NCBI RefSeq assembly: GCF_033568475.1
Contig: NC_133121.1
Location: forward strand, 133,952,375 to 134,016,374
Reading direction: 5' to 3'
Source of the DNA: Henckelia pumila
Lineage: Eukaryota; Streptophyta; Magnoliopsida; Lamiales; Gesneriaceae
DNA: 64,000 nt
Part shown: piece after piece, positions 12,959 to 42,602 of the stretch
Position numbering within the stretch: position 1 is the stretch's first letter
How the letters are laid out: every line of letters starts with the position of its first letter
The notes under the pieces: model-generated
What the model was told of the DNA's origin: nothing
Databases searched by the model: none
Seen by the model: the letters and a program-made list of their open reading frames with translations, nothing else
Made by a program: the position numbers and the translations under genes

Positions 12959-12960
12959 AC

Positions 12961-18686: not shown

Positions 18687-19310
18687 TTAATCTTAGATCA
18701 CAGGAATTCTCCTAATTTGTTCGAAGGACTATTTCTAGAACAATCAAACATATTCAAATATTGATGAACTAATCTTTCGTAATTCTAATCAAATTTGAAT
18801 GCATTAAATATTTGTGAAAATTCAGTTTACACCCAAACCACACAATGAAACCAAATTCTATTTCTAGTCGGTTTTACAATATGTTGATTATCAAAGTGAT
18901 CAAAATCGAACCTCCTCTGTCGACTTGGAATCAATTAACATGCAAGCAAATAGTTGATCAGACTATTCACAAGACAAATATAAATCTGACAATCAATAAA
19001 ATAAAATCAACTCTGAAAAATTTCAAACAAACATCCAAGTTTTCTACATGAATTTGTTTGGCGCAATCACGCCGTCTTGGTTGAAAACAAACTACTCAAT
19101 AATTATAATTTAATAAATAAAAATAAAGAAGAAAAGAAGAAGAAAAAATGTAGAAATCTTCTCCCAAGCTTTGAAGCCGCCCTCTGCGTTCTTTGCGTGT
19201 TCGGAACCCTTAATCTGATGAATAGATCGGTATTTAAGTGTCCAAGAATCTCTAAAAGATAGCATCCTTTTCGACCAAGAGTTTTCAAATATACGGAATC
19301 TGCACGCCAG

Positions 19311-19418
19311 GCTCGCTCGAGCGAGCACAGGTCTCACTCGAGCGAGCAACTCTCTGTCCCGGAAGATTTTTGGCAAGTCTGGCTCGCTCGAGCGAGCATC
19401 GACTCTCGCTCGAGCGAG
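19311..19418. repeat. Cluster of four gctcgctcgagcgagc palindromes in LTR A
   Basis: Perfect 16-bp palindromes at 19311-19326 and 19382-19397, a one-mismatch copy at about 19333-19348 and a 14-bp palindrome at 19405-19418. LTR C has the same four, intact (27202-27217, about 27224-27238, 27273-27288, 27296-27309). LTR B keeps one perfect copy (21640-21655) and two decayed ones. As RNA each can fold to a 6-bp GC stem with a self-complementary UCGA loop. Function unknown. Confidence 0.85.
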
Positions 19419-19745
19419 TGGATTTTTCTGCTCTGTGCGACAATTTTAAAACATTCATATCTTAAGTTCTAGTCGTCGGATCAGGCTGAAATTTTGACAG
19501 CAGCTTTAAAACATCTTAAACTTCATTGTGAATGGAAAAGATCGGAGTTTAATCTCTCTAAAATTAAATATGATTTTTCGATCAAGGCTGCTCCGTAATT
19601 CACTATTCAAAAATCAATTTTCCTACAAAATTAACCCGGAGAGTGTAATATACGCACAAGAACTAAAACACATAAAAGCAATATGAATGCACATAAAATA
19701 GACATAAAAATAACATGAATAAATGCACACAAAATGCACTTATCA

Positions 19746-20694
19746 ACACCCTCCTACTTAAACTTTGCTCGCCCTCGAGCAAGACATGCAAAAACAATAT
19801 GCAAACAAAAACATAAGTGAGGACGAATCATGAATGTGCACAGCCTCCAAGAAGTTCAATCACAAAACAAAATCACACACAGCTCTCAATTTTTCATAAT
19901 ACACCTTCGATTTAACGTGAACGTGTGTGTGTGAACTGTCATTCCAGTATCATACAACTTAGACCGAATTCGTTTTAAAACTGCTTAGCGACCTATGACA
20001 AATCAGTGCAAGTTTCACTTTTCAAGTGCTCATTCCTTCCAATGATCTCTAGAAAAAAAAACCCACCTCTTGAAATAATGAATTACACACCTCCGGATTT
20101 TGCACCAGGTATTTCTTTTGCCCCAATAATTACCCGCTGACTTAGCTATAACTGGCTAGGATACAAAAAATCTTTCTTTTTTTTTTCTAATCCCCTCGTC
20201 TATAGCCCGGATGGAGCATCAACCCCATTTTACCCGCTAACTTAGCTATGGAACATTGATTAGGATTTCAATCATTGTCCAAGCCCGGATGGAGTTGTAA
20301 AAATATTTTTTTTTCTAGGTGCGCCCAAGATCATAAGTGTAAACTAGAGCCTCATCAAAATTCATAGAACACAATCAAGATCCACAAACCACGTGCAATG
20401 GTCAAACAGACAGAAACTTCATCAAATCTTTCGTTACAGTCCACTGGTCTAACACAAGTGCTAATAAATATTCACGGTTCAACCTACAGTTTCTCATGTC
20501 AAGTCAAGAGCAAATTTTTTTAAAAAAACCAATTTTTCAAATAAACTTCATCATCATTGGCTATTATGACTCATCTTACTCATGCAAAACTAAACAAACA
20601 ACAACAACAACAAACTAGATGTAAACAAGCACAAAACATGACAGATGCAACACAAACATAACAAACAATGCAATAAACTAGTGTACCAAAAACT
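19746..20694 (-). other. Internal region of the non-autonomous LTR element (first copy)
   Basis: 949 bp, matched by 22060-23007. In element orientation it starts AGTTTTTGG (primer-site position, degenerate) and ends in a purine tract before LTR A. It contains two copies of a block acccgct(g/a)acttagctat plus agcccggatgga (about 20125-20230 and 20225-20295). No gag or pol motif is visible. Confidence 0.7.
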
Positions 20695-22059
20695 TGACCG
20701 GCTAAATCGGTATGAAATAAATCTACTGGCAAGTGTACCAGGTCAAGTAATAGTAAAGTGGACAGAGAGTCCAAGTATCGATCCCACAAAGACTGTTGTC
20801 AATTCTTAAAAATTAATTATTTTACTTAATCTAGATAAAATAATAAAGAGCAATTTGAATTAAATAAAATAAGAATATAAAATAAAAACTTCTTAAGAAA
20901 TAAGAATAAAAATAACTGAAGATAAAAATAATTAAAACGAGACAACCAAGACACACGTAGGTACCAAACAAATCATGTAACATGTAGTTGATTCAGGACT
21001 CAGATTTAATCTTAGATCACGGGAATTTTCCTAATTTGTTCAAAGGACTATTTCTAGAACAATCAAACCTATTCAAATATTGATGAACTAATCTTTCGTA
21101 ATTCTAATCAAATTTGAATGCATTAAATATTTGTGAAAATTCAGTTTATACCCAAACCGCACAATGAAACCGAATTCTATTTTTAGTCGGTTTTACAATA
21201 TGTTGATTATCAAAGTGATCAAAATCGAAACCTCCTCTGTCGACTTGGAATCAATTAACATGCAAGCAAATAGTTGATCAGACTATTCACAAGACAAATA
21301 TAAATCTGACAATCAATAAAATAAAATCAACTCTGAAAAATTCCAAACAAACATCCAAGTTTTCTACATGAATTTGTTCGGCCCAATCACGCCGTCTTGG
21401 TTGAAAACAAACTATTCAATAATTGAAATTATAAATCAATAAATAAAAATAAAGAAGAAAAGAAGAAAAAAAAGTGTAGAAATCTTCTCCCAAGCTTTGA
21501 AGTCGCCCTCTGCGTTCTCTGTGTATTCGGAACCCTTAATTGATGAATAGATCGGTATTTAAGTGTCCAAGGATCTTTAAAAGATAGCATCTTTTTCGAC
21601 CAAGAGTTTCCAAATATATGGAATCTGCATGCCAGGCATGCTCGCTCGAGCGAGCAACTCTCTGTCCCGGAAGATTTTTGGCAAGTCTGGCTCGCCCGAG
21701 CGAGCATCGACTCTCGCGCGAGTGGATTTTTCTGCTCCGTGCGACAATTTTGAAAAATTCATATCTTAAGTTCTAGCTGTCGGATCAAGCTGAAATTTTG
21801 ACAGAAGCTTTAAAACATCTTAAAATTCATTGTGAACAGTGGAGATCGGAGTTTGATCTCTCTAAATTTAAATATGATTTTCCGATCAAGGCTGCTCCGT
21901 AATTCACTATTCAAAAATCCATTTTCCTACAAAATTAACCCGGAGAGTGTAATACACACACAAGAACTAAAACACATAAAAACACATAAAATCAATATGA
22001 ATGCACATAAAATAGACATAAAAATAACATGAATAAATGCACACAAAATGCAGTTATCA
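20695..22059 (-). repeat. LTR B (middle LTR)
   Basis: 1365 bp, clearly homologous to LTR A and LTR C along its length, without the MITE. The palindrome cluster has lost about 25 bases and is partly mutated. It is preceded and followed by the same internal sequence, so it is shared by two tandem element units. Confidence 0.8.
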
Positions 22060-23007
22060 ACACCCCCATACTTAAACATTGCTCGCCCTCGAACAAGACA
22101 TTCAAAAACAATATGCAAACAAAAACATAAGTGATGACGAATCATGAATGTGCACAGCCTCCGAGAAGTTCAATCACAAAACAAAATCACACACGCTCTC
22201 AACTTTTCATAATACACCTTTGGTTTAACGTGAACGTGTGTGTGTGAACTGTCATTCCAGTTTCATACAACTTAGACCGAATTCGTTTCAAAACTGCTTA
22301 GCGACCTATGACAAATCAGTGCAAGTTTCACTCTTCAAGTGCTCATTCCTTCCAATGACCTCTAGAAAAAAAACTCACCTCCCTTGAGATAATGAATTAT
22401 ACACCTCTGGATTTTGCACCCAGTATTTATTTTGCCCCAATAATTACCCGCTGACTTAGCTATAACTGGCTAGGATACAAAAAATCTTTCTCTCTTTTTT
22501 TTTTCTAATCCCCTCGTCTATAGCCCGGATGGAGCATCAACCCCATTTTACCCGCTAACTTAGCTATGGAACAATGATTAGGATTTCAATCATTGTCCAA
22601 GCCCGGATGGAGTTGTAAAAATATTTTTTTTTCTATGTGCGCCCAAGATCATAAGTGTAAACTAGAGCTTCATCAAAATTCATAGAACACAATCAAGATC
22701 CACAAACCAGCTATTATCGTGCAATGGTCAAACGGACAAAAACTTCATCAAATCTTTCGTTACAGTCCACTGGTCTAACACAAGTGCTTATAAATATTCA
22801 CGGTTCAACCTACAGTTTCTCATGTCAAGTCAAGAGTAAAGTTTTTTAAAAAAAACAATTTTTCAAATAAACTTCATCATCATTGGCTATTATGACTCAT
22901 CTTACTCATGCAAAACTAAACAAACAACAACAACAACAAACTAGATGCAAACAAACACAAAACATGACAGATGCAACACTCATAACAAATAATGCAATAA
23001 ACTAGTC
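22060..23007 (-). other. Internal region, second copy, cut short at the RDR2 junction
   Basis: Near copy of 19746-20694. It ends at actagt (23001-23006), 12 bases before the LTR would be expected; the RDR2 fragment begins within two bases. Confidence 0.75.
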
Positions 23008-24243
23008 TAAAATCTTAGATTGATTATGGTTTTTCCAACATAAATAAAAAAAAAAGGGAGACTCGTTATCATGGAAATTTCCATATTAGTCCATCATTAT
23101 CAGGTTATCAGGTACATAATGGGGCCATAGATGCTGGGTGAGTTATTAAACAGGATGTTCATTGGCAAAAGATGTGGCACCAAACTATTACATGCTTAGC
23201 AAGTTGAGAGACAACTCGAAACACCTTAGTCATATTTTCAGAAGTCCACACCAATTCCAAACATTTCTGTTTGTACTTACCATAAGCCTTGGTACAGTGA
23301 AATATGGTTTTATGCTGGATAATTCTCAAGGTTTAACAGTGGTCAACAAACAGATCTGATTGGTCAGTTCGAAGCCTTTGTACATCCATACACAGAACAC
23401 AACCTAGCCCCTATATTAATATTAACATTATGTGAGTTTCAACCTCAGGTTCTTGCCCTCATCTCCACTTCTAGAACAGTTGAAATCTAAAAGAACAGGG
23501 AATCAGGGTCATACACAACCAACAGAGGAAAGTGTATAAAACCTTAGGGTTCCCAGCCTAAAAACTGTAGGTGTTGTTAACTGCATATGAAGGTGGAATA
23601 ATGGAATTTCCATGAAATGATAAATTGAAGATTCACTGTGGAGAAGATCCGAAATTCTGTAATAGACGGAATAGAGAAATGGTGTTGAGAAAATGTATTG
23701 AAGATAGGCAATGTCACTGTTCTGTAAAAACATAATTCCATGGAAGCACAACCTTCTCTTTTATATATTTCTAATCTTCTCTATATCTACTTAACTGCAT
23801 TAACTACGCAAACTGCTATTAACTAATTAGTAATTAACTTATTACTGTATAGCAATCAACAACTCAAACAATCCAATCGCAACAGCCGAAACTTCTGTAA
23901 CTGCACTATAAGCTAAATAGATATAAACAGGAGTAAGGTGGATGCCCGTGAACCACTATCATAATAAAACGAATCAACGCAAGACAAAGCTTCTAAACAA
24001 AACTAATTTGTTTGCGGGGAATGCAGGAGTAGACCACCTCAAAATCTCTGTCCTTCTGCTACTTGTTTAACTTTAAACAAATGTTCTTCGCAAGTATCAG
24101 TCCAAAGTTCATTTTGACCATCATAGAAAACAATCTCTCCAATATGAATCCCACCAATTTTTTTTTTTTATTTTTTTTTTTTTTGTCTCTCTAGATGAAT
24201 AACCTAGATTAAGAGAGAGAGAAACAATACGAAAAAACAATAC

Positions 24244-24801
24244 CTTCAAAAGAATGGCATCAGCATTCTGTTCGTTACCACCAAAACAACATCCCTGGGT
24301 CTCTAGCACATCCCCAAATCCCACCTCCAACTTATAGCACTCCCCGTTTTGTTTCAAAAAGAACTCAAGCCTCCTCTTCTCAGGCGAAACCCACAATTTG
24401 ACCTCATCCCAAGACTCCAAAATCCCCATGCAATCCCTCCTGGACATGATCCCAGCAAGCAAAACAAGCCCTCCAGCATTTTCCACCCGGTTATTCGGGT
24501 CCACGGGACGAATTATTATGTCTTCGAAGGAATGTGACAGGGTGAGATGGGCCCCCCTGAAGTACAGTTTCCTTTGCTGGGAAAGCGATAAAGCTTTGAT
24601 ATTTGTTTCTGGGGTGTCGAACTGAACTCTGCCATGGCCTCTAGACTTCCAGTTCTTGTGCTCTGTGGAGATGTCGATGGCAAAAATTTCGCCTTTTCCT
24701 AACAAAGATTCGAGGAAAGTGAAGAGTTCTTGGGCTATTGCTGAGTGAGGAATGTTGGTCACTCTCGCAGTGAGCGTAGGTCTCTTCTCTTCCGTACCCA
24801 T
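24244..24801 (-). pseudogene. Duplicate of RDR2 exon 1 (N-terminal RRM-like domain only)
   Basis: The 558-bp coding exon from the ATG at 24801 to the splice donor AAG|GTATTG is intact and encodes the same 186 residues as the complete gene (MGTEEKRPTLTARV ... CCFGGNEQNADAILLK). Its promoter region is also copied. Exons 2-4 are absent: intron 1 is cut at 23008 and the DNA beyond is retroelement sequence. Read through the donor, the frame ends after about 40 more residues, so translation would give only the N-terminal domain. It could be expressed because promoter and exon are preserved, or be spliced to cryptic acceptors in the LTR DNA. It cannot encode a polymerase, since the catalytic DLDGD is missing. 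Confidence 0.93.
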
Positions 24802-25549
24802 GGCGCAGATGGAGAAGAGAGATACAGGGGTTTCGTTTTCGTGGGCTCTTATTATATTCTTGACCACAATTTATGGGGTTTTTGTTTTTTAATAATAAAT
24901 AATGTAATGTAATGTAATTGTAATAGAAAAGAGAAAAAATACACGATTAGTCCTCATACTTTCCCACTAAAATATTTTTGATCCTTAAACATTTCATCTC
25001 AACATTTTTAGTCCCTAAACTTTAAAAAGTATTACTCCTTACTGTTAATTTTATGTTTAAATATAATGTTAAAAATTCAATTGTGATATTTATTATATTT
25101 TATGGACAAATATTAGAAAATAAAATTTAATTTGGTAAATATAAAGAAGGTAAATCATAACATATCTACAATATAATATATATTATTAGATTTTTATTAT
25201 ATATATGAACAAAAGTTTATAAGAATTTTGTATATAAATTATTAGCAATAAGAAAACTTAGATAAAAAAAATCAAAATTGATTAAAATTTGTAGTTAAAA
25301 ACTTATACAATAAATTTTTTTAAATAAATTATTTATAAATGATGGATTTTTTATCAAAAAATTTCATAACTATAAATTTTGTTCGTTCATATTCTAAATT
25401 ATGATATATATTTTTATAAATATAAATTTATGTTTTTCTTAAATGTTGATGTAAGAATATTATTATTATTTTTTTTATATTGTATTTGAAAATAAGAGTT
25501 CTGAAACTTTCAAACTTATTAAAATTACGACGTTATTATTTGATTTATT

Positions 25550-25835
25550 TATTTATTTTTTTAACAGAAAAAACTTGTATTTTTATTAACCAAAAATTTC
25601 ATCCATTACAAAATTCTCCAACTTAAATGGAAGAGTACTCTTGTGGAAATCGAAAAACTAGCAAAAGCATGAGCAACCGCATTCGTAGTACGTAGTACGT
25701 AGTACGTGATTTAATTTCATGTTGGTGGAACCATAAAAAAAATTCGTACGTCTGTTTCAATTGCACCAATGTATTCAAAATTCTCAACTGGGTAGGTGAC
25801 TACTTGCACTGCAAACAAAGAATCAACAATAACTT
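25550..25835 (-). pseudogene. LINE RNase H relic (copy in the left arm)
   Basis: Mirror copy of the relic at 36405-36690. Read on the minus strand it gives DSLFAVQVVTYPVENFEYIG and, after stops, VAHAFASFSIS, similar to the RNase H end of the LINE at 17700-17880. It ends in an A-rich tail (ttatttatttattt on the plus strand). Confidence 0.6.
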
Positions 25836-26455
25836 CAATAATGAAGACTGCTTTTAAAGTAAAAGATTAGTTCATTTTTACGTATACAGTGTAACGAATT
25901 CAAACATTCTTTTACTAAAAAAATAAAGTTAAAGAAAATTTAAAAAGTAAATAAAAGTTTTTATAATAAAGAACAAAAGCCACAACAATAGTATAGATAG
26001 ATACCACATATTCATATTTGATGATATGTTAAGAAAATAAAAATTATACCTAAGTCGTATAATAATGTTAAATTAAATTAAATTAGATAGATTTGGTTTC
26101 GGATCCACTTAATTAGTATCAAATATATTGAATACATTTTTTTTATTTTAAAAAATTATTAGAAGACTCATCATAATTAAGAAATATGCACATTAAATTA
26201 TTCAATGATATTTTTGATATTGAAAACGTACTCGACTAATGTTCCAAAACAAAACATATTCGACTATTTTTTATGTAAAAAAACTCAAGGTATAAAAGTA
26301 GATATTTTTTTAAATAAAAATTTAATAATATTATTAAAAAATAAGTATGTTCACGTTGTAGATATGTTATTATTTATTATTTATGGTTCTATATTTTCAT
26401 AATATTTTTAATTGTTAATTTTTATTCATTTTTTGTCCCTATAACTTTATAAACA

Positions 26456-27645
26456 TCTTAAGAAATAAGAATTAAAATAACTGAAGATAAAAATAATTAA
26501 AACGAGACAACCAAGACACATGTAGATACCAAACAAATCATGTAACATGTAGTTGATTCAGGACTCAGATTTAATCTTAGATCACGGGAATTCTCCTAAT
26601 TTGTTCAAATGACTATTTCTAGAACAATCAAACCTATTCAAATATTGATGAACTAATCTTTTGTAATTCTAATCAAATTTGAATGCATTAAATATTTGTG
26701 AAAATTCAGTTTACACCCAAACCGCATAATAAAATCGAATTATATTTCTAGTCGGTTTTACAATATGTTGATTATCAAAGTGATCAAAATCGAAACCTCC
26801 TCTGTCGACTTGGAATCAATTAACATGCAAGCAAATAGTTGATCAGACTATTCACAAGACAAATATAAATCTGACAATCAATAAAATAAAATCAACTCTG
26901 AAAAATTCCAAACAAACATCCAAGTTTTCTACATGAATTTGTTCGGCTCAATCACGCCGTCTTGGTTGAAAACAAACTACTCAATAAGTGAAATTATAAT
27001 TCAATAAATAAAAATAAAGAAGAAAAGAAGAAGAAAAAGTGTAGAAATCTTCTCCCAAGCTTTGAAGCCGCCCTCTGCGTTCTCTGCGTGTTCGAAACCC
27101 TTAATCTGATGAATCGATCGGTATTTAAGTGTCCAAGGATCTCTAAAAGATAGCATCCTTTTCGACCAAGAGTTTCCAAATATATGGAATCTGCACGCCA
27201 GGCTCGCTCGAGCGAGCACAGGTCTCGCTCGAGCGAGCAACTCTCTGTCCCGGAAGATTTTTGGCAAGTCTGGCTCGCTCGAGCGAGCATCGACTCTCGC
27301 TCGAGCGAGTGGATTTTTCTGCTCCGTGCGACAATTTTGAAAAATTCATATCTTAAGTTCTAGCCATCGGATCAAGCTGAAATTTTGACAGCAGCTTTAA
27401 AACATCTTAACTTTGTTGTGAACGATGGAGATTGGAGTTTGATCTCTCTAAAATTAAATATGATTTTTCGATCAAGGCTGCTCCGTAATTCACTATTCAA
27501 AAATCCATTTTTCTACAAAATTAACCCGAAGAGTGTAATACACACACAAGAACTAAAACACATAAAAACACATAAAAGCAATATGAATGCACATAAAATA
27601 AACATAAAAATAACATGAATAAATGCACACAAAATGCACTTATCA
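26456..27645 (-). repeat. LTR C, truncated by the RDR2 fragment
   Basis: Matches LTR B from its position 20891 onward; the first 196 bp (in plus-strand order) are missing. The right end is the LTR terminus tatca. It keeps the four palindromes. The junction shares tcttaa between the RDR2 fragment and the LTR, a possible microhomology. Confidence 0.82.
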
Positions 27646-29000
27646 GCCCACTACACATTAGGCCTAATTATTAGTTAAATACAAGCTCATTAATTATTTA
27701 GTTTCATCAAATTGAACTTATTTATTGTTTAATTGACATTTTAATTATATGTAAATTATATATTAAACTTACAAAAATATGTGAATAAAAAAATGAAAAT
27801 GAATGAAGATTACGTGAGGGTCATTGACAATCTAACTTTCTTGTTTTTATTTTTGGATACAATTGTTTTTTTTTTATTTTAAATTTTGATGCGTAATTAT
27901 TGGGTTTGTTTGTTGAAAAATTATAGGTTTTTAGTACATGATGTAGATCAAATATAAATTGTTTTGTGATGGTTTTATTCTTAATTATTTTTTTGCATTG
28001 ACCTAGAATTTGTATAATTTCATTGTATTGATTCTTAGTATATCGAACAACTATAGTATGTCATCGCCTACACTGAAAATAATTTCTAGCTCCGCCCCTA
28101 GATAGAATTGACTGTAACATAAGAGATATAACTCACCCCTTTCACAAGAAGTCGGGAAGATTGACTCACTGAACGGAGCAGTTGATTAAATGACGTATTT
28201 TGGAATATTGGTGCTACATATTATAATTATTTTTATTGTTAAAAAAGAAGCAATAAATCAAATATTAAATCAATATTATGTTTATTTACACATTAGTTAT
28301 ATAAAATAAAATGAATTTCAAATGACATTATTAACATAAAATATTTTATAAACATGAAAGTGGTGGATTGAAGTTTATGACCTTATTTTTGTAACACAAA
28401 AACTATTATGAGGCGGTTCATGGGTTAATTTTGTGAGATTGGTTGATCTCTTATTTGACCTGATCCATGAAAAATATCAGTTTTATGTCAAAATTTTAAT
28501 TTTCATTATAGACATGAGTTCATCGACGAATACATATATATATAGTATTTCATGTTAATTAAAATTAAGTATGATAAATTTAATGTTCACCAAATAATGA
28601 TGTCATTTAAAATTCATTTACTTTGTAATGCTAGTGTGTAAATAAATAAAGTGTTAAATTCGTTCACATTAAACAATAAAATTATAATTAAAATCTATAT
28701 ATTTCTCCAAATGCAATCTAAGAAATCAATAAATAGATAATTTTTCATGTTTCAAAGGGAGCGTTCATTATAACTATTAAATGTTTTCTTTAATCTATCT
28801 GTCTTTAGGTAACGTTGACTTGAGCATCGAAGCGTTTGCAACGGAAAGCTTCGGCACCTTTAACATTCTGTTTATGGCTCAAACGGCGATCTAATATCTT
28901 TTTCTTAGGTCCGTAGGTGCGATGTCTACGTACTCGGATACGACATTGCTATGTTATAACTCTGAGTTTTCCTAAATAAGTGACTAGTTTATAGGCTATA
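27646..29000. other. Spacer between the LTR array and the copia element
   Basis: No gene seen. A 38-bp stretch at 27659-27696 (aggcctaattattagttaaa and onward) also occurs at 18115-18152, on the other side of the LTR array. Around 28415-28545 lies a relative of the gtgagaccgtct dispersed repeat. About 28795-28995 looks like the end of an old LTR (gacttgagcatcgaagcg, ggaaagcttcggcacc), into which the copia element inserted. Confidence 0.5.
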
Positions 29001-29267
29001 AGTTAGAGAACACTAGAAGATGATAAATGATTTCATTTAATCACTTGAGAGAATAACTTTTTACAAACATCTATATTTAAGGATTCTTGCATCTAATAAG
29101 CCAATGACAGGTGGCTAAGAAATCGTAACAACCTAACAATCAAATATTCCCTTCTTGCGTAATAAGAAATCTATTCCACTAAGCTTTAAGTGACGCTATA
29201 CACTTTTGGGCTAAAATTGATATGGGCTTTTGAATTATTTGTTGGGCCTTCTATTATTTCCTTAACT
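29001..29267 (-). repeat. 3' LTR of the copia element
   Basis: 267 bp, delimited on the left by the duplication ctata and on the right by the polypurine tract (TTGAGGGGGCA on the minus strand, 29268-29278). Confidence 0.9.
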
Positions 29268-30739
29268 TGCCCCCTCAAGCTAAGTGTGGGGTAAAGAACA
29301 ACACTGAGCTTGTTTCGTAGACGCAAGAAGGCAGCAGCAGATAACGGTTTGGTGAGAACATCCCCAATTTGATCAAAGGACGGCACATATTGAACACATA
29401 GTTGTTTGGCCAAGACCTTTTCTCTAACAAAATGAAGATCCAACTCGAGATGTTTGGTTCGAGAATGATGAACGGGTTTTGCACTGAGGGCAATAGTGCT
29501 CATGTTATCACATCAGAGAACAGGAACTTGTTGTTGTGGAATATGAAGTTCCTTTAATAAAGACTGAATCCACAACAAGTCAGAGGCAGCATTGGCCAGG
29601 CTTCGATATTCGGCTTCAGTACTTGAGCGAGATACTACTGATTGTTTCTTTGAGCTCCAGGATATTGGCGATGTACCAAGAAACCAGTAGAAACCAGAAG
29701 TTGAGCGCCTATCATCCGGATCATTTCCCCAATCTGCATCACAATATCCAGAAAGGGAAAGACAAGACGACACTTGTAAATGAATGCCAAAGTCCAAGGT
29801 GCCTTTGATATAGCAAAGAATGCGCTTCACAGCTTTCCAATGTGTATTGAGAGGAGTGTGCATGAATTGACAAACTCGATTTACACTGTAGGCAATGTCT
29901 GGGCGAGTGATGGACAAATATTGTAAAGCTCCAACAGTGCTCCGATATAAGGTGACTTCTTCAAAAGGATCTCCGTCTTTGGAAGAAAGTTTGGCACCCG
30001 TAGACATAGGTGTTGGCAGTGAGTGTGCTTGAGACATCTTTGTTTTCTGAAGTAGCTCCTGAGCATATTTAGACTGAGAGAGAAATAATGAAGAATCAGA
30101 AAATCTCTTTACCTCTATGCCCAAGAAGAAGGACATATCACCAAGATCTTTGAGAGAGAATTGAGTGTCCAAGTCACGGATGATTTGCTGAATATGAGCC
30201 TGATCATTACCTGTTATCATTATATCATCAACATATACAAGAATATAGACAATAGTGGTAGAAGTATGTTGAATGAACAGTGATGAATTAGCACGAGATG
30301 CAATGAATCCCATGATGTGAAGAGCAGAGCGCAATTTATCAATCCAAGCACGGGGGGCTTGTTTGAGATCATAGATAGCCTTGTGTAACTTACAAACAAG
30401 AGGAATATCACCATTTTGAACTTCAAAACCCGGAGTTTGTTGCATGAAGATGACTTCATTGAGTGCTCCATGTAAAAAGGCATTATTAACATCCAATTGC
30501 TTGATAGTCCAATTACAAGAGGCAGCCAGAGTTAGCACAATGCGAATAGTTGTTGGTTTAACAACTGGACTAAACGTTTCATTGTAATCCAGGCCTGGAG
30601 TTTGGGAGTATCCTTTGGCAACTAATCTGGCCTTGTGTCTAGCAATTGAGCCATCGGGATTAGTCTTAAGTTTGAACACTCATTTGCACCCAATAATCGA
30701 AGTATCAACTGAGATTGGAACCAATGACCAAGTTTGATT
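29186..30739 (-). pseudogene. Reverse transcriptase and RNase H of copia pol
   Basis: RT motifs: [48 protein letters not shown] and the catalytic [14 protein letters not shown]. RNase [41 protein letters not shown]. Two stops precede the RT frame (a CAG-type codon now TAG at about 30738, and TGG now TGA at about 30680, just before [10 protein letters not shown]). A third lies within RNase H at about 29510, where TGG before CDNMSTIAL is TGA. The frame then continues into the LTR to 29186. RT itself is uninterrupted for 388 codons. Confidence 0.92.
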
Positions 30740-32713
30740 CTAAATAAGAGCATTATATTCAGATTGCATAGCATTTATCCAATCAGGATGTTGTTGAGCC
30801 TCTTTCACATTGCTTGGTTCAAACAGAGAAGAAACCGATGCTTCAAAGATTCTTGGTTTGACGATCCCAGCCTTGGCCCTGGTAACCATATGATGAGTAT
30901 TCATAGGAGAAGGAAGAGAACTATCCTCTTCATTGGTAAAGGAAGAATTAATGGGAACATTGCCAGAGGATGCAGGTGAACTAGGGGATACAAACGAAGA
31001 GGTCATTCCTGGACAAGTATTGGAAGGACACTGGTGGAGAATGGGAGTTTGTGAAAGAAACAGAGGAGAGGCTGCTGGACTGTCTTTTAAAGGAGAAGGA
31101 GACTGAGTGTGAGAAGAAGAAAAAGGGAACGAAGTTTCATCAAAGGTGACATGCCTTGATACATAAATTCGACCATTTGGACTAAGACATTTGTACCCTT
31201 TGTGTTGAGTACTGTATCCTAGGAAAGTGCATGGAGTAGATCTAAATTCAAGCTTATAATGATTATATGGTCGTAAACACGGAAAACACAAACAACCAAA
31301 GATTTTGAGAGCATTGTAATCAGGATTTTTGTGACACAATTTGAGAAGTGGAATATCTCCAGAAAGAGAAGATGTAGGCAACAGGTTGATAATATAAGTA
31401 GAAGTTAAAAAGGCACATTCCCAGAATCGTAAAGGCATTGAAGCTTGGGCTAAAAGTGTAAGTCCCATGTCGACAATATGTCGATGTTTACGCTCCACTA
31501 CACCATTCTGTTTAGAAGTGTAGGGGCATGAGAAACGATGATTGATCCCATGATGTTGGAGAAAGGATGATAAAGCTTTAAATTCACCCCCAGAGTCCGT
31601 TTGTAAGGATCGAATTGTCTTGTTAAACTGTTTTTCAACATAAGACTTAAATAGAGGAAAAACATGACTGACTTCAGACTTAAGTTTGAGAAAATAAATC
31701 CAGGTAAAGCGACTATAAGCATCAACAAAACTGACATAATATCTAAAACCATTACGAGATTGTGTATGAGATGGACCCCAAATATCAGCATAGATTAATT
31801 CAAGAGGTTCAGTAAATTTTGTTAATGAGGAGGAGAAGGGAAGAGCATGACTTTTGCCCATTGAGCATGCAGAACAAAATGATGGTTTTTCATTACTTGA
31901 AATAGGAACATTACAGTGCTTGAGAACCTGCCTAACAACAGCAACACTAGGATGTCCTAGTCTAAGATGCCAACTAGTTAGAAGAGTAGAGGAAGAGTTG
32001 ACACCGGCCGATCTGCTTGAAGTGTTTATTTCTGGAGATTGAAGATGAAAACAAGTTGCTGACGAACCACAGATAGGAGAGGACTTTCCTAAGCTGAATT
32101 TATATAACCCCTTATGCAAAGTCCCTTTGAGAAGAATTGCATTGGTGGCTTGATCCTTCACAAAACAAAAATCAGGATGAAACTCAAAGAAAACACTGTT
32201 ATCTTGAGAAAACTTACTAACACTTAAGAGATTTTTGGTTATGTTAGGAACACACAACAGATTTTTGAGTAGGAAAGATCGAGATGAAGATAGAAATTTA
32301 GAGCTACCAACATGAGAGATGGACAGACCTTCTCCGTTTCCTATGTGAACCTTACCATTCCCAGTATACTCAGAGCCAAGGGAGAGATTACCAAGATCAC
32401 TAGTAACATGATGTGAAGCACCAGAGTCAGGATACCACCACTCTTCAGGAGAGGAACCAGACGTAGTGGAAGCTACAGCAGCAATAGGATACCGTGGGCG
32501 ATTCTGAGGCAGATGAGCTGGATAATAATTTCCAGGTTGATGCAAGGGAGGTCCAGAGTGATATCCACCATTCTTCCGATGAAAAGGCACAAAATCTTTG
32601 TCAAATCGATAGTGGAATTTTTCAGCAACATGCCCATTGTAGCCACATATTTGGCACACAGGCCTACCAGAGGAGTAGTGCCATCCTCGACCTCTACCTC
32701 GAGGATGTCTCCC
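30740..32713 (-). pseudogene. Zinc knuckle, protease and integrase of copia gag-pol
   Basis: An uninterrupted frame of 639 codons. It begins with a knuckle CQICGYNGHVAEKFHYRF, in which the last Cys is Phe. Then come the protease site WYPDSGASHHVTSDL, the GAG-pre-integrase HHCC domain (WHLRLGHPSVAVVRQV ... CSACSMGKSHALPF) and the integrase DDE core (YADIWGPSHTQSRNG, TDSGGEFKALSSFL, NGVVERKHRHIVD). It ends just before RT at a TAG stop. Integrase catalytic residues look intact. Confidence 0.92.
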
Positions 32714-33495
32714 TCAACCTCTACCACGATGGAATTGTTGAGGTTGAGAGGAAAAGTCATATTTCTTTGGAGAGGGAAACGTAGCAGCATTTACGGTAGG
32801 AGTGTTTTTAGCAGAGGGAAGAGAATATGACTCTATTCTGCCTTCATGAGCCATTAAAAGAGCACCCACATCAGAAATAGTGAGAGAATCGACTCGAGAA
32901 GTAATATGAACTACTACAGAGTCATATTCCAGACCAAGTCCACCCATAATGTACAGAACCTGATCTTCCTCTGAAATGAGATGTCCATAAGCGGCCAGAG
33001 TATCCATTAGAGTTTTCATTTTTCCCAGATAATCCTTCATACTGAGATCTCCTTTTTCAGAGTTTGAAGCTGTAGCTTGTATTGCATTACCTTGGCTCGC
33101 GATCTTGTAGCAAAAAGAGAAGTAACTCTGCCCCATAGCTGTGTGGAGGTTAAGCAACCAATCATTTGGCTTTGAACTCCTTCCGTCATAGATGCAAGAA
33201 GAAATGAAAATAACAATTGGTTCTGTCGACACCAAGAGATAAGCACTGGATTGATCGTCTCAACTCCATGTTCATCGAGTAAAACCTTTGGAGGAACAGG
33301 TGGATCCTCAAGAAGATAGATGTCCAAACCTAAACCACGAATGCCAGCAAGGATCTGGATATTCCAAAGAAGAAAATTGTCGTCACTCAATTTTACAGAG
33401 TTTATCTGATTTGCTGGGTTGATTATCAAAACGGTGGGATTGGTGGTGTTGATAATAGAGGAAGATGGATTTAACGGAGATGTGGTTTTCGCCAT
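32714..33495 (-). pseudogene. gag of the copia element, frameshifted
   Basis: Starts at the ATG at 33495, two bases after the primer-site motif (the site overlaps GCCATGG). The first frame (to 33037) has the copia gag opening (SVKLSDDNFLLWNIQILAGI). The second frame (32714-33235) has the UBN2-type gag domain (LNLHTAMGQSYFSFCYKIAS, MKTLMDTLAAYGHLISEEDQ, YIMGGLGLEYDSVV) and ends in an Arg/Gly-rich tail. The change of frame occurs near 33040-33230, and another before the knuckle. Confidence 0.88.
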
Positions 33496-33496
33496 G

Positions 33497-33508
33497 GCTC
33501 TGATACCA
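33497..33508 (-). other. Primer-binding site of the copia element
   Basis: TGGTATCAGAGC on the minus strand, a perfect match to the standard plant initiator tRNA-Met site, starting at the very end of the 5' LTR (TAACT). Confidence 0.93.
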
Positions 33509-33775
33509 AGTTAGAGAACACTAGAAGATGATAAATGATTTCATTTAATCACTTGAGAGAATAACTTTTTACAAACACCTATATTTAAGGATTCTTGCAT
33601 CTAATAAGCCAATGACAGGTGGCTAAGAAATCGTAACAACCTAACAATCAAATATTCCCTTCTTGCGTAATAAGAAATCTATTCTACTAAGCTTTAAGTG
33701 ACGCTATACACTTTTGGGCTAAAATTGATATGGGCTTTTGAATTATTTGTTGGGCCTTCTATTGTTTCTTTAACT
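33509..33775 (-). repeat. 5' LTR of the copia element
   Basis: 267 bp, about 98-99% identical to 29001-29267, followed on the right by the duplication ctata. Transcription would run leftwards, away from RDR2 and towards the duplicated exon 1. Confidence 0.9.
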
Positions 33776-33780
33776 CTATA

Positions 33781-35776
33781 TAGGCAGACACACAAGACTT
33801 ATAACCTTTTGACACTACCTGATGTTATTGACTAGCACAGTGTGTGGATTAGGCTTATATAAGGTTGCTTTCGAACAAAAAAAATTGAAATCCAAGAGTT
33901 TACATGTATTTTTCTATAAAACTTATACAAAAAAAAATAAAAAATTCAGACTCTACTTATTTACACTATAACTATAGTGTTGACAAAAGATTTCAAATCC
34001 TTGGAATATTCAAGGCATTTAAAAAACCATTGTAATTAGTACAACTAAAGTAGTATATGGATTAATTCAAGTTTTACCTTGTTAACATCGGAAAAAGTTG
34101 GATGGACGTGTCAACTTCTTCCCAATTAAATCTTGCTCTCATTGTAGCCTGAATACGAGGATCAGTCACCTGCACACACTCAACATCTCAAGTCAAAATA
34201 TGCTCATGAGAGGAAAAAGTCGAGAGTAATGTGCAATGTATTTCAATGTAGTTGTTCGAAAAAATAAGCCAAACATGAGTATTTATAAGTGAACATGTCA
34301 GAGTCCTACCTAGCTAAGAAGATTTGCTTCCTCTTTGAATTAAAACTTTCATTCTTATCAAATATTCTTGCCTTATCTCGAGGTATATGAATATGTCTAG
34401 ATAAGAAAACAAGATCTTGATTGATATTTCTCCGGAGCCTCAACACTACATATCTTGGTCTTGGCTCCACCGAGCCTGAGCCACCGCTTCTTTCTTGACT
34501 GTTTCTCAACTCCCTTTGTACCCTTCTCGTCACATTACCCTACTACTGGTCAGCAGTCATAGGTTCTCAGGTTCATGTCTCCATCACCCAACTCTCTTCT
34601 AAAATTTCGGCCTCGGGTCGGACCCATACACTTACCTATATGTCATCCCTATTTAACAATAAAAATAAAATAAAAATCATAGATTTCAAAATAAGGACTC
34701 AAAATCAAAGTTACTTCTACATTACTTAAAAATAAAGACACAAACTCTAGATAATTAATTTAATTTCTGAACACAATACTTTTACGAGCCAAAACATGCG
34801 CAATTTGATTTTCTTTCGCGCTACAATGATGAATTGATGCATCCATCTAGTGGGAACAAAGGTTCATCCCTAGAGGAAGTGGAGAGGGGTTGAATCACTT
34901 CTACTACTTACAGTTCATCCGTCTCGATAATCCAATTACGCACTAAGTTGAAACTGATTTACTTTTAGATTTCCCTTCTTTAGTGCTACCATTTCCGCTA
35001 GGTGTGAATTTTGATGAAAGACATCCGAAAAACATCTGTGATATGCAAGCAAATGGGGCAAGTGTACACCTAATTTAAGAATACAGGGATTAATAAGACA
35101 ATAAATATTACATGGGGGGTTATATTGGGAGAGTTTGAAAAATGACCTTGGTCAACCAAATTTTTTGATTTATGACCTTTTTTCAAAAAAAAATTTACAA
35201 AATGACCTTCAAATACAAAGAAAATGCAAAAACAAAATAAAAAAAAAATTAAAAAGGTTATATTTCCAAATCATGGTCAAATGAAGGTTATTTAATTAAA
35301 TAAATTCGGATTTTTATGTTTTGGGTTATATACTCTTAAGTGACAACACAAAGGGGGGAAATGCAATTGGCCCCCACATCGACATTCACTTTTAGTTATC
35401 CAACACCTTGTGGTTGTCATGTATTATCAGTATTAACATGAGTTACTTCGAAATCAGTGGGGCTTGACGTGTGAGAGTCTCTCACTGTTTAATTCAAATA
35501 TTATAAAGTAGCTACTTTTGTATATATTAATAATATATATTTTGTTAATATATTTTTAAAAATGTATGTAAGAATTTTTTTAAAAATAAAATTAAAAGAA
35601 GGAAGCGGGGGTTTACCATTGAACTTTTGATTTTATTGGGGAAAAATATATTTTTAATCTTCGAAATTTCATACTAAAATATATTATGTTCCTAAACACT
35701 TCAACGCAACACTTTTAGTCATTAAACTTTGAATATTGTAACACAATTAGTCATTCTATGGTTATTAGGGACTAAT
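33781..35776. other. Spacer upstream of RDR2, with one exon-like island
   Basis: Mostly AT-rich without recognisable genes. The one coding-like piece is 34078-34169 (minus, separate entry). Near 35120-35300 there is a repeat-like stretch with recurring atgacctt. The DNA right of 35636 belongs to a probable terminal-inverted-repeat element that reaches into the RDR2 promoter. Confidence 0.5.
34078..34169 (-). pseudogene. Isolated exon-like sequence of an unrecognised gene
   Basis: Between a good acceptor (gtgtgtgcag) and a plausible donor (ACAAG|GTAAAAC) the minus strand reads without stops as VTDPRIQATMRARFNWEEVD and then TSIQLFPMLTR. The composition is protein-like, unlike the AT-rich surroundings. 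I found no neighbouring exon on either side and do not recognise the family. It could be a relic of a gene broken by the retroelement insertions, or chance. Confidence 0.3.
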
Positions 35777-37312
35777 TTAAGATGTTTATAAAGTTATAGG
35801 GACAAAAAATGAATAAAAATTAACAATTAAAAATATTATGAAAATATAGAACCATAAATAATAAATAATAACATATCTACAACGTGAACATACTTATTTT
35901 TTAATAATATTATTAAATTTTTATTTAAAAAAATATCTACTTTTATACCTTGAGTTTTTTTTACATAAAAAATAGTCGAATATGTTTTGTTTTGGAACAT
36001 TAGTCGAATACGTTTTCAATATCAAAAATATCATTGAATAATTTAATGTGCATATTTCTTAATTATGATGAGTCTTCTAATAATTTTTTAAAATAAAAAA
36101 ATGTATTCAATATATTTGATACTAATTAAGTGGATCCGAAACCAAATCTATCTAATTTAATTTAATTTAACATTATTATACGACTTAGGTATAATTTTTA
36201 TTTTCTTAACATATCATCAAATATGAATATGTGGTATCTATCTATACTATTGTTGTGGCTTTTGTTCTTTATTATAAAAACTTTTATTTACTTTTTAAAT
36301 TTTCTTTAACTTTATTTTTTTAGTAAAAGAATGTTTGAATTCGTTACACTGTATACGTAAAAATGAACTAATCTTTTACTTTAAAAGCAGTCTTCATTAT
36401 TGAAGTTATTGTTGATTCTTTGTTTGCAGTGCAAGTAGTCACCTACCCAGTTGAGAATTTTGAATACATTGGTGCAATTGAAACAGACGTACGAATTTTT
36501 TTTATGGTTCCACCAACATGAAATTAAATCACGTACTACGTACTACGTACTACGAATACGGTTGCTCATGCTTTTGCTAGTTTTTCGATTTCCACAAGAG
36601 TACTCTTCCATTTAAGTTGGAGAATTTTGTAATGGATGAAATTTTTGGTTAATAAAATTACAAGTTTTTTCTGTTAAAAAAATAAATAAATAAATCAAAT
36701 AATAACGTCGTAATTTTAATAAGTTTGAAAGTTTCAGAACTCTTATTTTCAAATACAATATAAAAAAAATAATAATAATATTCTTACATCAACATTTAAG
36801 AAAAACATAAATTTATATTTATAAAAATATATATCATAATTTAGAATATGAACGAACAAAATTTATAGTTATGAAATTTTTTGATAAAAAATCCATCATT
36901 TATAAATAATTTATTTAAAAAAATTTATTGTATAAGTTTTTAACTACAAATTTTAATCAATTTTGATTTTTTTTATCTAAGTTTTCTTATTGCTAATAAT
37001 TTATATACAAAATTCTTATAAACTTTTGTTCATATATATAATAAAAATCTAATAATATATATTATATTGTAGATATGTTATGATTTACCTTCTTTATATT
37101 TACCAAATTAAATTTTATTTTCTAATATTTGTCCATAAAATATAATAAATATCACAATTGAATTTTTAACATTATATTTAAACATAAAATTAACAGTAAG
37201 GAGTAATACTTTTTAAAGTTTAGGGACTAAAAATGTTGAGATGAAATGTTTAAGGATCAAAAATATTTTAGTGGGAAAGTATGAGGACTAATCGTGTATT
37301 TTTTCTCTTTTC
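35636..37312. mobile_element. Probable non-autonomous TIR element forming the RDR2 upstream region
   Basis: About 110 bp at 35640-35760 (ttcatactaaaatatatt, cacttttagtcattaaactt) is similar, in inverted orientation, to 37195-37310 (aaaatgttgagatgaaatg, gtatgaggactaatcgtg). Long A/T-rich inverted repeats containing tagtcc are common ends of plant Mutator-like MITEs. The element would be about 1.67 kb, contains a LINE relic, and ends only about 125 bp before the RDR2 ATG. No clear target duplication was found, so the ends are approximate. Confidence 0.45.
36405..36690 (+). pseudogene. LINE RNase H relic upstream of RDR2
   Basis: The frame reads DSLFAVQVVTYPVENFEYIG and AIETDVR, then, after stops, TVAHAFASFSIS, which parallels the RNase H end of plant LINEs (compare GVAHSLASFAIS near 17850). 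It is followed by an A-rich run (aaaaaaataaataaataaat) at about 36675-36695, consistent with a LINE tail. Only the last ~280 bp of the element are present. Confidence 0.6.
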
Positions 37313-37436
37313 TATTACAATTACATTACATTACATTATTTATTATTAAAAAACAAAAACCCCATAAATTGTGGTCAAGAATATAATAAGAGCCCACGAA
37401 AACGAAACCCCTGTATCTCTCTTCTCCATCTGCGCC

Positions 37437-40400
37437 ATGGGTACGGAAGAGAAGAGACCTACGCTCACTGCGAGAGTGACCAACATTCCTCACTCAGCAA
37501 TAGCCCAAGAACTCTTCACTTTCCTCGAATCTTTGTTAGGAAAAGGCGAAATTTTTGCCATCGACATCTCCACAGAGCACAAGAACTGGAAGTCTAGAGG
37601 CCATGGCAGAGTTCAGTTCGACACCCCAGAAACAAATATCAAAGCTTTATCGCTTTCCCAGCAAAGGAAACTGTACTTCAGGGGGGCCCATCTCACCCTG
37701 TCACATTCCTTCGAAGACATAATAATTCGTCCCGTGGACCCGAATAACCGGGTGGAAAATGCTGGAGGGCTTGTTTTGCTTGCTGGGATCATGTCCAGGA
37801 GGGATTGCATGGGGATTTTGGAGTCTTGGGATGAGGTCAAATTGTGGGTTTCGCCTGAGAAGAGGAGGCTTGAGTTCTTTTTGAAACAAAACGGGGAGTG
37901 CTATAAGTTGGAGGTGGGATTTGGGGATGTGCTAGAGACCCAGGGATGTTGTTTTGGTGGTAACGAACAGAATGCTGATGCCATTCTTTTGAAGGTATTG
38001 TTTTTTCGTATTGTTTCTCTCTCTCTTAATCTAGGTTATTCATCTAGAGAGACAAAAAAAAAAAAAAATAAAAAAAAAAAATTGGTGGGATTCATATTGG
38101 AGAGATTGTTTTCTATGATGGTCAAAATGAACTTTGGACTGATACTTGCGAAGAACATTTGTTTAAAGTTAAACAAGTAGCAGAAGGACAGAGATTTTGA
38201 GGTGGTCTACTCCTGCATTCCCCGCAAACAAATTAGTTTTGTTTAGAAGCTTTGTCTTGCGTTGATTCGTTTTATTATGATAGTGGTTCACGGGCATCCA
38301 CCTTACTCCTGTTTATATCTATTTAGCTTATAGTGCAGTTACAGAAGTTTCGGCTGTTGCGATTGGATTGTTTGAGTTGTTGATTGCTATACAGTAATAA
38401 GTTAATTACTAATTAGTTAATAGCAGTTTGCGTAGTTAATGCAGTTAAGTAGATATAGAGAAGATTAGAAATATATAAAAGAGAAGGTTGTGCTTCCATG
38501 GAATTATGTTTTTACAGAACAGTGACATTGCCTATCTTCAATACATTTTCTCAACACCATTTCTCTATTCCGTCTATTACAGAATTTCGGATCTTCTCCA
38601 CAGTGAATCTTCAATTTATCATTTCATGGAAATTCCATTATTCCACCTTCATATGCAGTTAACAACACCTACAGTTTTTAGGCTGGGAACCCTAAGGTTT
38701 TATACACTTTCCTCTGTTGGTTGTGTATGACCCTGATTCCCTGTTCTTTTAGATTTCAACTGTTCTAGAAGTGGAGATGAGGGCAAGAACCTGAGGTTGA
38801 AACTCACATAATGTTAATATTAATATAGGGGCTAGGTTGTGTTCTGTGTATGGATGTACAAAGGCTTCGAACTGACCAATCAGATCTGTTTGTTGACCAC
38901 TGTTAAACCTTGAGAATTATCCAGCATAAAACCATATTTCACTGTACCAAGGCTTATGGTAAGTACAAACAGAAATGTTTGGAATTGGTGTGGACTTCTG
39001 AAAATATGACTAAGGTGTTTCGAGTTGTCTCTCAACTTGCTAAGCATGTAATAGTTTGGTGCCACATCTTTTGCCAATGAACATCCTGTTTAATAACTCA
39101 CCCAGCATCTATGGCCCCATTATGTACCTGATAACCTGATAATGATGGACTAATATGGAAATTTCCATGATAACGAGTCTCCCTTTTTTTTTTATTTATG
39201 TTGGAAAAACCATAATCAATCTAAGATTTTATATTTCACTGTGCTTGTTACTCAGTTTGTTGTGAACAAATTGTAGACTTACAACTAGCTGTGTTATCTT
39301 ACTCTTATTTTTTTCCCCAGCTCAAACATGCACCTAAAATATTTAAAAGGGTCTCTGGACCAAATGTTGCTTCAAGATTTAGCTCGGACCGGTATCACAT
39401 CTGCAAGGAGGACTTTGACTTTCTTTGGGTTCGCACAACTGATTTTTCTAGTGTGAAGTCAATCGGAAATTTATCTTGTCTTTGTTGGAAGATTGAAGAA
39501 AATTTTTCGAGCTTAGACAATTATTCCTGTCTTCCATTCTACAAGAAAGATGTAATCGAATTAGTATTGGAAGAAAGAGAAAAATTCCCTTCGTCTCCAA
39601 ATTTAGTTCCAATTGTGGCTAACAATTCGGATTTCAATTTAGATTACGAGGTCCTTTATCAGCTTAACTCACTTGTACATACCCAAAAGTTGAGTTTTGC
39701 TTCAGTCGACAACGATCTTTTCCATATTCTCAGCACGTTAGATGTAAATACGGCTTTGTTAGTTCTGCAGAAAATGCACAAGTTACCATCCTCGTGTTAT
39801 GAACCTGTGTCTTTCATCAAGAATGAGTCTCACATTATCAGTCAGAATGGTCAAAATCTTACTTCATCAATTTTGAAGAGATTTACAAATCAGAACATGA
39901 TGAATTGTCACAGAGTTCTTGTAACTCCATCGAGGATTTTCTGTATGGGTCCGGAACTCGAAAACTCAAACTACATTGTTAAGCACTATGCTGCATATGG
40001 TTCAGATTTTGTGAGGGTCACCTTCGTTGATGAAGATTGGGGTAGGCTTCCTGCCCATGCTGTTTCCACCAGTACTATGCAAGGTATCTTTGCAAGGCCG
40101 TATCGAACAGATGTTTATTATAGAATTTTATCCATACTCAGAGACGGGATTGTGATTGGAGATAAAAAATTTGAGTTTCTAGCCTTTTCTGCCAGTCAAC
40201 TCCGATCTAATGCTGTTTGGATGTTTGCCTCAAACGAGCATGTCAAAGCGGAAGACATCAGAGAGTGGATGGGATGCTTTACGAAGATACGAAGTGTCTC
40301 GAAATGTGCGGCAAGGATGGGTCAGTTGTTCAGCTCATCAAAGCAAACAGTAGAAGTCCATCCTCGGGATGTTGATGTTATTCCCGACATAGAAGTGATT

Positions 40401-42602
40401 ACAGATGGTGTGAAATATTGCTTCTCAGATGGAATAGGAAAGATTTCTTATCTATTTGCGAAAGATATTTCAAGAAAGCTGGGTTTGTCTCGTGTCCCAT
40501 CAGCGTTTCAAATACGTTACGGTGGCTACAAAGGTGTCATTACCGTTGACCGCCGATGCTTCCGTAAGTTAGCACTAAGGAATAGCATGCTTAAGTTTGA
40601 ATCTGACAACTATATGCTTAATATAACCAAGTGTAGTGAATCCATGCCTTGCTACTTAAACCGGGAGGTTATCACCCTGTTATCAACCTTGGGCGTAGAG
40701 GATGATGCTTTTTTGGCATTGCAAGAAGAGCATCTTCGACTTTTGGGAAGTATATTGACAGATAGAGAGGCTGCAACAAGCGTTTTGGAGGGAATTGGTG
40801 GAACTGAAATCAAAAGCATATTAGGAAAGATGATGTTTTTAGGTTATGAACTGACAAAGGAACCTTATCTTTTTATGATGCTTCAATCACACCTCGATAA
40901 CCAGATATCCGATTTAAGAAGTAGGTGCCGCATTTTTGTCCCAAAGGGCCGTGTGTTAGTGGGGTGCCTGGATGAAACAGGAATTCTGGAGTATGGCCAG
41001 GTTTACGTACGAGTAACCTTGACTAAGACTGAGCTACAGTGCACCGATCAACCATATTTTCATAAAGTTGATGGGACAACATGTGTGGTTAAAGGGAAGG
41101 TTGTGGTAACGAAAAATCCATGTCTCCATCCAGGCGATGTAAGGGTACTTGACGCTGTGTGGGATATTAAATTTGAAGAAAATGGTTTCGTGGATTGCCT
41201 CATTTTCCCTCAGAAAGGAGAAAGGTAAAATTTTTCTCACTTTCCAATAATCCATAATTCGTACGTAAATTGTTTCTTTATGTGGCCTGCGGAAATAATT
41301 TAAAGCTTAAATTGGTATATGTTGATATTATCAGTTGCGGGTATCTGATAGGAATTGTTTATTCTATTTTTATTAAAAAAGGATATTTATATGCCTTAAT
41401 TATTGGGATTTAAATCCCCTTTGTACTCTAGATAATGATTTGTATATTCATTAATAAATCTTTCTTTTCTCTGCTACAACTTTTACATGTGTGGACTCAA
41501 ATGTATGGAAGTTTGTTTTGAGATTTGAGATTTGAATGTTATATTTCAACAGGCCTCATCCAAACGAGTGCTCTGGTGGCGATCTCGACGGAGACCAATA
41601 CTTTATTAGCTGGGATGAAAAGCTCATCCCACCTAGAACAGTGGCGCCAATGGACTACACCGGACGACGAGCGCGTATCATGGATCACGAAGTAACCTTG
41701 GAGGTAACGAGAAATGGCCTTTTTTTATATTTCCATCCCATTCCACGGTAGACTGATAGAAGTAACATTACTCCCTGAATTTTCAGGAAATTCAAAGATT
41801 TTTTGTGGATTACTTGTTTGGTGATACTCTAGGCGCCATCTCTACCGCACACTTGGTGCATGCTGATCGCGAGCCTGACAAGGCATTGAGTTCCAAATGT
41901 CTCGAGCTAGCAACCCTTCACTCAATGGCTGTCGACTTTGCTAAAACGGGAGCACCTGCCGAAATGCCCAGATTCCTGAAACTACGAGAATTTCCTGATT
42001 TCATGGAGAGGTGGGAGAAGCCGATGTATATATCCCAAGGTGCTTTAGGCAAGCTATACAGAGCCACCATCCAGTTTGTTCAACAAACAAAACCAAAAAA
42101 CGAACCCTCCCATAAGATCTTGGCCGATGCTTACGACCCTGATCTCATCGTAGATGGCTACGAAACCTTTCTGGAAACTGCCAAAAGCCACAAAGAACAG
42201 TACATAGATAAAATGAGCACACTGATGAATTACTACGGAGCTGATAGCGAAGTCGAGATATTGACAGGGAACCTTTTCAGGAAGATGTCATATCTGCAGC
42301 GGGACAACCGCAGGTACGGAGAGGTGAAAGACCGAATCTTGGCATCTGTCAAGACTTTGACGAAGGATGTCAAGGAGTGGTTCGAAAGCAGCTGCAGCGA
42401 AGGTGAACGAGAGAAGTTGGCATCTGCGTGGTATCATGTAACGTACCACCCGAGTTATTCGGAGGGCAGCTCATGTTGCCTGGGATTTCCGTGGGTTGTG
42501 GGCGAAATCTTGCTGAACATCAAGTCGACTAGACGATGCATGATCATCGTGTATGCAAGAAGATCATCAGGTACCAATGACGCATCTGGAGACGATATTT
42601 GA
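37437..42602 (+). CDS. RDR2: RNA-dependent RNA polymerase 2 (complete, four exons)
   Basis: Nuclear RNA-dependent RNA polymerase that, in the known plant pathway, copies Pol IV transcripts into double-stranded RNA for DCL3 and so feeds 24-nt siRNAs and RNA-directed DNA methylation. Exons: 37437-37994, 39321-41224, 41553-41703, 41787-42602, all with GT-AG introns and matching phases, giving 1142 residues; Arabidopsis RDR2 has about 1133. Exon 1 is the RRM-like N-terminal domain. Exon 2 holds DYVRVTFVDEDW-like sequence (DFVRVTFVDEDW), WMFASNEHVKAEDIREWMG, CFSDGIGKIS, VPSAFQIRYGGYKGV and PKGRVLVGCLDETGILEYGQ. Exon 3 has the catalytic CSGGDLDGDQ (DLDGD at residues 831-835). Exon 4 has STAHLVHAD, DFAKTGAPAEMP and the helical C-terminus. 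An upstream in-frame GTG exists, but the ATG at 37437 (cgccATGG) matches the family start. The sequence agrees with RDR2 rather than RDR1 or RDR6 throughout. No stops or frameshifts: the gene looks functional. Confidence 0.97.
38340..38690 (+). mobile_element. LTR-like remnant in RDR2 intron 1
   Basis: The stretch resembles a short copia-type LTR: tgttgattgctatacagtaa, then a good TATA-like tatataaaag at 38473-38482, then gagaaggttgtgcttcc, ending near gcagttaacaaca at about 38667. It is copied in the left arm (about 23550-23900). No internal domain or clear target duplication. It might supply an alternative transcription start inside intron 1. Confidence 0.35.

Follow-up and report, generated by a model that had tools for sequence, protein, structure and literature searches.

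The closest published case to the locus described here, an RDR2 gene facing an inverted copy of its own 5′ region, is VIM4-VIM2 of the Arabidopsis accession Cvi-0 (PMC13213937). In the part of that report on which we draw, small interfering RNAs (siRNAs) were tied to the loss of 2.7-2.8 kb of intergenic DNA still present in Col-0. Antisense 5′ ends lay within the first exon and tags from 5′ rapid amplification of cDNA ends crossed the 50-bp spacer; RNA-Seq showed no spanning transcript. The Col-0 copies are 92% identical across a gap of 2.8 kb, and spacing is thus not the sole difference from Cvi-0 (PMC13213937). The locus that we analysed is from Henckelia pumila, and lies in a window of 64,000 nt, by which we mean the whole stretch of DNA studied (contig NC_133121.1, 133,952,375-134,016,374 of the forward strand; 0 N).

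Like VIM4-VIM2, where identity reaches 99.86%, the RDR2 locus is a head-to-head structural variant with near-identical arms covering a first exon and intron of a gene of the DNA methylation pathway. The Cvi-0 arms belong to two paralogous genes separated by 50 bp, with siRNAs and antisense 5′ ends shown in the excerpted report (PMC13213937), whereas the H. pumila locus has one gene and one 5′ fragment, a 9.3-kb retrotransposon spacer, and is known from sequence alone. PAI1-PAI4 of Arabidopsis Ws is also a natural inverted gene duplication, but the excerpt cited describes it as tail-to-tail, with a heterologous promoter fused to it, a minority of transcripts spanning both copies, and small RNAs and methylation shown (PMC3203196). 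Near-identical inverted gene arms, a feature of siRNA-producing repeats of the PAI and VIM type, are present at RDR2 (99.83% over 3456 columns). Repeats of that type also have a promoter or a short spacer by which one transcript can span the two arms, and yield siRNAs accompanied by non-CG methylation of the homologous copies; the RDR2 spacer measures 9315 nt. At the FOLT1/FOLT2 epiallele of Sha, truncated and rearranged copies are likewise linked to silencing of the functional gene; these copies are on another chromosome, and small RNAs and methylation are shown in the portion cited (PMC5257005). ROS1, as far as the cited extract goes, resembles the arrangement proposed for RDR2 in that a gene linked to RNA-directed DNA methylation (RdDM) has its expression adjusted by methylation close to its promoter. 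It differs in that a transposable element lies 5′ of the gene, methylation raises expression, the inverted repeat used there is a transgene, and no natural duplication is involved (PMC4380477). In the open-licence literature, no inverted duplication of RDR2 appeared in titles or the starts of abstracts among the matches listed, which is no proof of absence.

Self-BLAST of the window aligned 35777-39231 on the plus strand with 26461-23008 on the minus strand at 99.826% identity across 3456 columns, bearing out the near-identical inverted copies that an earlier note on this DNA had reported. The arms are head-to-head, with their inner ends 9315 nt apart. A repeat finder recovered the same arms, split into four blocks (three of 100% identity, one of 99%), of which the longest measured 1997 nt. 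When 22000-40500 was shuffled 20 times (first order), the longest exact inverted matches were of 13-17 nt, so chance is excluded as an explanation of the repeat. Between the arms there are three substitutions, at 36008, 36558 and 36658 of the right arm, and three one-base indels, each in a homopolymer run (35955, 36094 and 38054). Two of the substitutions are transitions; read in the RDR2 sense, each has A in the right arm and G in the left. If the right arm is ancestral, both run opposite to methylation-driven C-to-T decay of the left copy, a weak indication with n=2.

Assignment of the gene on the right was made against solved structures and family models. Three open stretches on the plus strand gave as best solved-structure match RNA-dependent RNA polymerase 2 (7eu0, 7roz; E values 2.4e-43, 2.1e-264 and 1.9e-93), and the Pfam families PH_RDR2 and RdRP scored above their cut-offs, with an RRM match in exon 1 slightly below. 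Four exons (37437-37994, 39321-41224, 41553-41703 and 41787-42602), joined by AG/GT borders, give one frame of 1142 aa that contains the DLDGD catalytic motif. On its best match, RdRP domain and full-length frame, the gene at 37437-42602 is plant RDR2, the name that the earlier note had given it. It looks intact from its sequence, with its own promoter kept.

The right arm (35777-39231, plus strand) is the source copy, continuous with the gene, and comprises the promoter region, the 5′ untranslated region, exon 1 and 1237 of the 1326 bp of intron 1. The earlier note had described the arm as promoter, exon 1 and intron 1; the first two hold, and the third needs trimming, as intron 1 occupies 37995-39320 and the duplicated segment reaches 39231, leaving the last 89 bp ahead of exon 2 uncopied. 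A stretch at 38355-38556 in RDR2 intron 1, also present in the left copy, contains TATATAAAAGAG and ends TGTT...AACA; by eye it is solo-LTR-like (LTR, long terminal repeat) and could be an inner promoter.

The left arm (23008-26461, minus strand) has its ATG at 24801, an identical exon 1 and a retained splice donor, and is without exon 2 or any known acceptor. A tblastn search with the RDR2 protein matched the four exons of the gene, exon 1 of the left arm (residues 1-187) and nothing further in the window. The open frame of the left arm (24121-24801, minus strand) encodes 226 aa, namely 186 exon-1 residues and 40 read from intron 1, and holds an RRM-like region just under the Pfam cut-off and part of a PH-like domain. 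An identical and open exon 1 could indicate that the copy encodes a shortened RDR2 protein that is of use to the plant, such as one competing for RNA polymerase IV (Pol IV). We regard this as extremely improbable, given that the frame ends within the PH-like domain and that youth alone accounts for the identity.

We consider it likely that the left arm is a recent, probably neutral, templated insertion. A templated insertion leaves its donor in place, and the right arm still lies within an intact RDR2. The copied segment takes promoter and intron along and breaks intron 1 at an arbitrary point, and the recipient is a recognizable array of three LTR units with internal stretches between them, which flanks the left arm on both sides and is oriented there like the undisturbed copies. 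One side (18165-23006, minus strand) consists of LTR1 (about 18165-19745), internal sequence, LTR2 (about 20695-22059) and further internal sequence, the outer LTR borders being approximate; the other is LTR3 (26462-27645, minus strand), with about 0.2 kb missing at its left end. LTR3 is oriented like LTR1 and LTR2, so the spacer is not at present flipped with respect to the array. Read along the minus strand, LTR1 and LTR2 have a purine-rich tract ahead of TGATAA, and LTR3 has none. In an array that reads leftwards with LTR3 as its first LTR, the tract is expected at LTR1 and LTR2 only.

Both junctions could be read to the base. At J1 (23006-23008) array internal sequence (AACTAGT) meets the intron-1 end with one C between, or with a 2-bp TA overlap. 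At J2 (26456-26462) the promoter end meets LTR3, and the donor has CTTAA in common with array copy 1 or TCTTAA with copy 2. Microhomology is thus 5-6 bp at J2, and 0-2 bp or a 1-nt filler at J1. Among 200,000 random draws of donor/recipient junctions, 0.9% reached 5 bp and 0.3% reached 6 bp, the pieces having been picked after seeing the junction. A 14-bp arm/array overlap from BLAST was cut to 5-6 bp after the other array copies had been read, and CTAGT at J1 was rejected as a Helitron end, since the same motif occurs in an undisturbed array copy. Comparison with the other array copies suggests that about 0.2 kb of array was lost at the insertion site; microhomology or filler together with such recipient loss is what a templated insertion is expected to leave.

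We infer that a break occurred in the old tandem LTR array near 23.0 kb, and that repair copied about 3.45 kb of the RDR2 5′ region from the opposite strand, 9.3 kb beyond the insertion. The copy would have been joined via CTTAA/TCTTAA at one end and nearly blunt at the other, and about 0.2 kb of the array would have been lost. A length of 3.45 kb is long for templated filler. Copying of nearby sequence, junction microhomology and recipient loss are shared with microhomology-mediated break-induced replication as outlined in the extract cited, with the difference that the route here is read from two junctions (PMC2621351). The product would be a 5′ stump with a promoter which, if active, would give leftward, truncated RDR2-sense transcripts with no known acceptor. 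Such transcripts should be unstable or at most encode the 226-aa fragment, and the left copy would not be expected to form double-stranded RNA on its own.

The position of the RDR2 piece between LTR3 and array internal sequence, in the orientation of the array, might instead point to capture, in which an LTR element, a Pack-MULE or a Helitron brought the piece with it. The copied piece includes promoter sequence, which is normally not transcribed. LTR3, the would-be 5′ LTR, is without its inner end, which precludes reverse transcription of the element in its present form. Inspected by eye, the arm ends (TTAAG..., ...TTTTA) have neither a terminal inverted repeat nor the TC/CTRR ends of Helitrons, the marks by which such elements are recognized. 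With the LTR3 inner end gone and the ends judged by eye, no functional element ends enclose the RDR2 piece, and capture seems very improbable.

Very high identity could also arise from an assembly or library artefact, such that the left copy is absent from the plant or present in one haplotype only; three of the six differences are homopolymer lengths, a usual sequencing error, and the left copy is known from a single assembly. This is possible but unlikely. The three other differences are true substitutions, and the joins are resolved to the base in mid-array, match the array on either side and lie in a window without N. The 9.3-kb spacer is also unlike the near-zero spacers to which fold-back read artefacts give rise.

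The contents of the spacer allow the duplication to be placed in time. As the earlier note had it, the arms stand head-to-head across 9.3 kb with a truncated LTR, here LTR3, and a copia element. The latter (29001-33775, minus strand; exact ends by eye) has pol frames on the minus strand by Pfam, LTRs with 4 mismatches in 268 bp, and CTATA immediately beyond both ends. Substitutions number 3 in 3452 between the arms, 4 in 268 between the copia LTRs, and 83 in 2000 and 44 in 1070 between array copies (about 4%; array lengths rounded); arms and copia LTRs differ in divergence with a Fisher p of 0.0008. The arms are less diverged than the copia LTRs and the array copies, which suggests that the insertion is the youngest and came when the spacer was already in place. 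With a rate of 7e-9 per site and year assumed for dating, the arm duplication would be about 62,000 years old (13,000-181,000), the copia element about 1.1 million years (0.3-2.7) and the array copies about 2.9-3.0 million, which makes the duplication probably the last of these events. AATAAA occurs 26 times on the plus strand of the spacer and 8 times on the minus strand, a raw count that was given no weight.

Several observations weigh against a recent, neutral templated insertion. Of the six arm differences, five cluster within the distal 883 of the 3456 alignment columns (post hoc binomial test, p=0.005); the clustering could reflect gene conversion of the proximal part, in which case the true age would be older. 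J2 offers modest microhomology and J1 almost none, and the junctions themselves are known from the assembly alone. RdDM could plausibly target a promoter copy that lies in retrotransposon DNA, and neutrality goes beyond what sequence evidence can support. Finally, T-DNA transcription through two terminators induced silencing in the experiments that the cited excerpt describes, which indicates that a long spacer is no bar to a silencing event (PMC6196474).

The last points bear on whether the repeat silences RDR2 in trans, either through a read-through hairpin or through Pol IV uptake of the left copy, giving 24-nt siRNAs against the RDR2 promoter. The latter route would amount to negative feedback, since production of those siRNAs depends on RDR2. 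The arms are long and nearly identical, retrotransposons surround the left arm, and inverted or rearranged gene copies do act in this way, according to the portions cited, at PAI1-PAI4 (PMC3203196), VIM4-VIM2 in Cvi-0 (PMC13213937) and FOLT (PMC5257005). The orientation of the transcription units argues otherwise. The two RDR2 promoters face outwards, with the spacer behind them, and each copy would yield RDR2-sense RNA. Read-through from the copia element and LTR3, both minus-strand, would also be RDR2-sense on the left arm. Both arms would thus give sense RNA, and the RNAs would not be complementary. Judged from this layout, complementary RNA needs plus-strand entry at 23008, minus-strand entry at 39231 or an antisense start within an arm. 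A LINE (long interspersed nuclear element) frame on the plus strand ends at 17958, which makes plus-strand entry over about 5 kb of the LTR array conceivable.

A hairpin, for its part, would need antisense transcription across the 9.3-kb retrotransposon-rich spacer, against 50 bp in Cvi-0, and Col-0, with its 2.8-kb gap, is without these siRNAs in the part of the report cited, though its copies are only 92% alike (PMC13213937). C-to-T decay is absent from the left arm (n=3 substitutions). The layout as sequenced does not favour a self-silencing hairpin, and we think trans-silencing of RDR2 improbable. The hairpin and autoregulation proposed in the earlier note are not favoured by the anatomy, with promoters, copia element and LTR3 all RDR2-sense and the spacer 9.3 kb long. 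The more specific idea, that the left copy feeds 24-nt siRNAs which lower RDR2 and thereby the siRNAs themselves, as a young natural negative-feedback setting of RdDM by a copy of its own gene, appears quite improbable. CpG ratios were 1.26 in the right promoter (21% GC), 0.51 in exon 1, 0.37 in the intron part and 0.43 in the copia element, and gave no useful separation of the arms from their surroundings.

Around the array, a 197-bp insert at 18490-18686 in LTR1, not in LTR2, starts GGCCCCGTTTGG, ends CCAAACGGGCCC and has TTA at either flank; it presumably is a Harbinger-type miniature inverted-repeat transposable element. Just beyond the two array ends, 18114-18155 and 27659-27700 share 41 bp (39 identical), far exceeding an ordinary target-site duplication. 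The LINE parts on the plus strand are 16693-17958, with zf-RVT and RVT_3, and 5361-5957, reverse-transcriptase-like by eye. Between them, at 5944-15810, minus-strand pol frames named gypsy-like by eye are flanked by a pair of direct repeats, each about 2.86 kb long and 97.8% identical to the other; the whole unit seems to interrupt the LINE. Further minus-strand frames are a transposase (50605-51924; matches to MULE, SWIM and Transposase_mut), next to more frames on that strand as far as 53145, and an AMP-binding frame (1375-2583), which we assume to be 4-coumarate-CoA-ligase-like. Rfam at gathering thresholds and ARAGORN with the bacterial code gave no matches in the window.

If the left arm is silent, the locus would be another recent gene-fragment duplication, of value as an instance of templated repair that occurred naturally in a plant and has a date. 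An siRNA-producing left arm would instead make the locus a natural test of whether a gene of the pathway can adjust its own level by way of that pathway; it would compare with VIM4-VIM2, though acting at the step where siRNA precursors are made.

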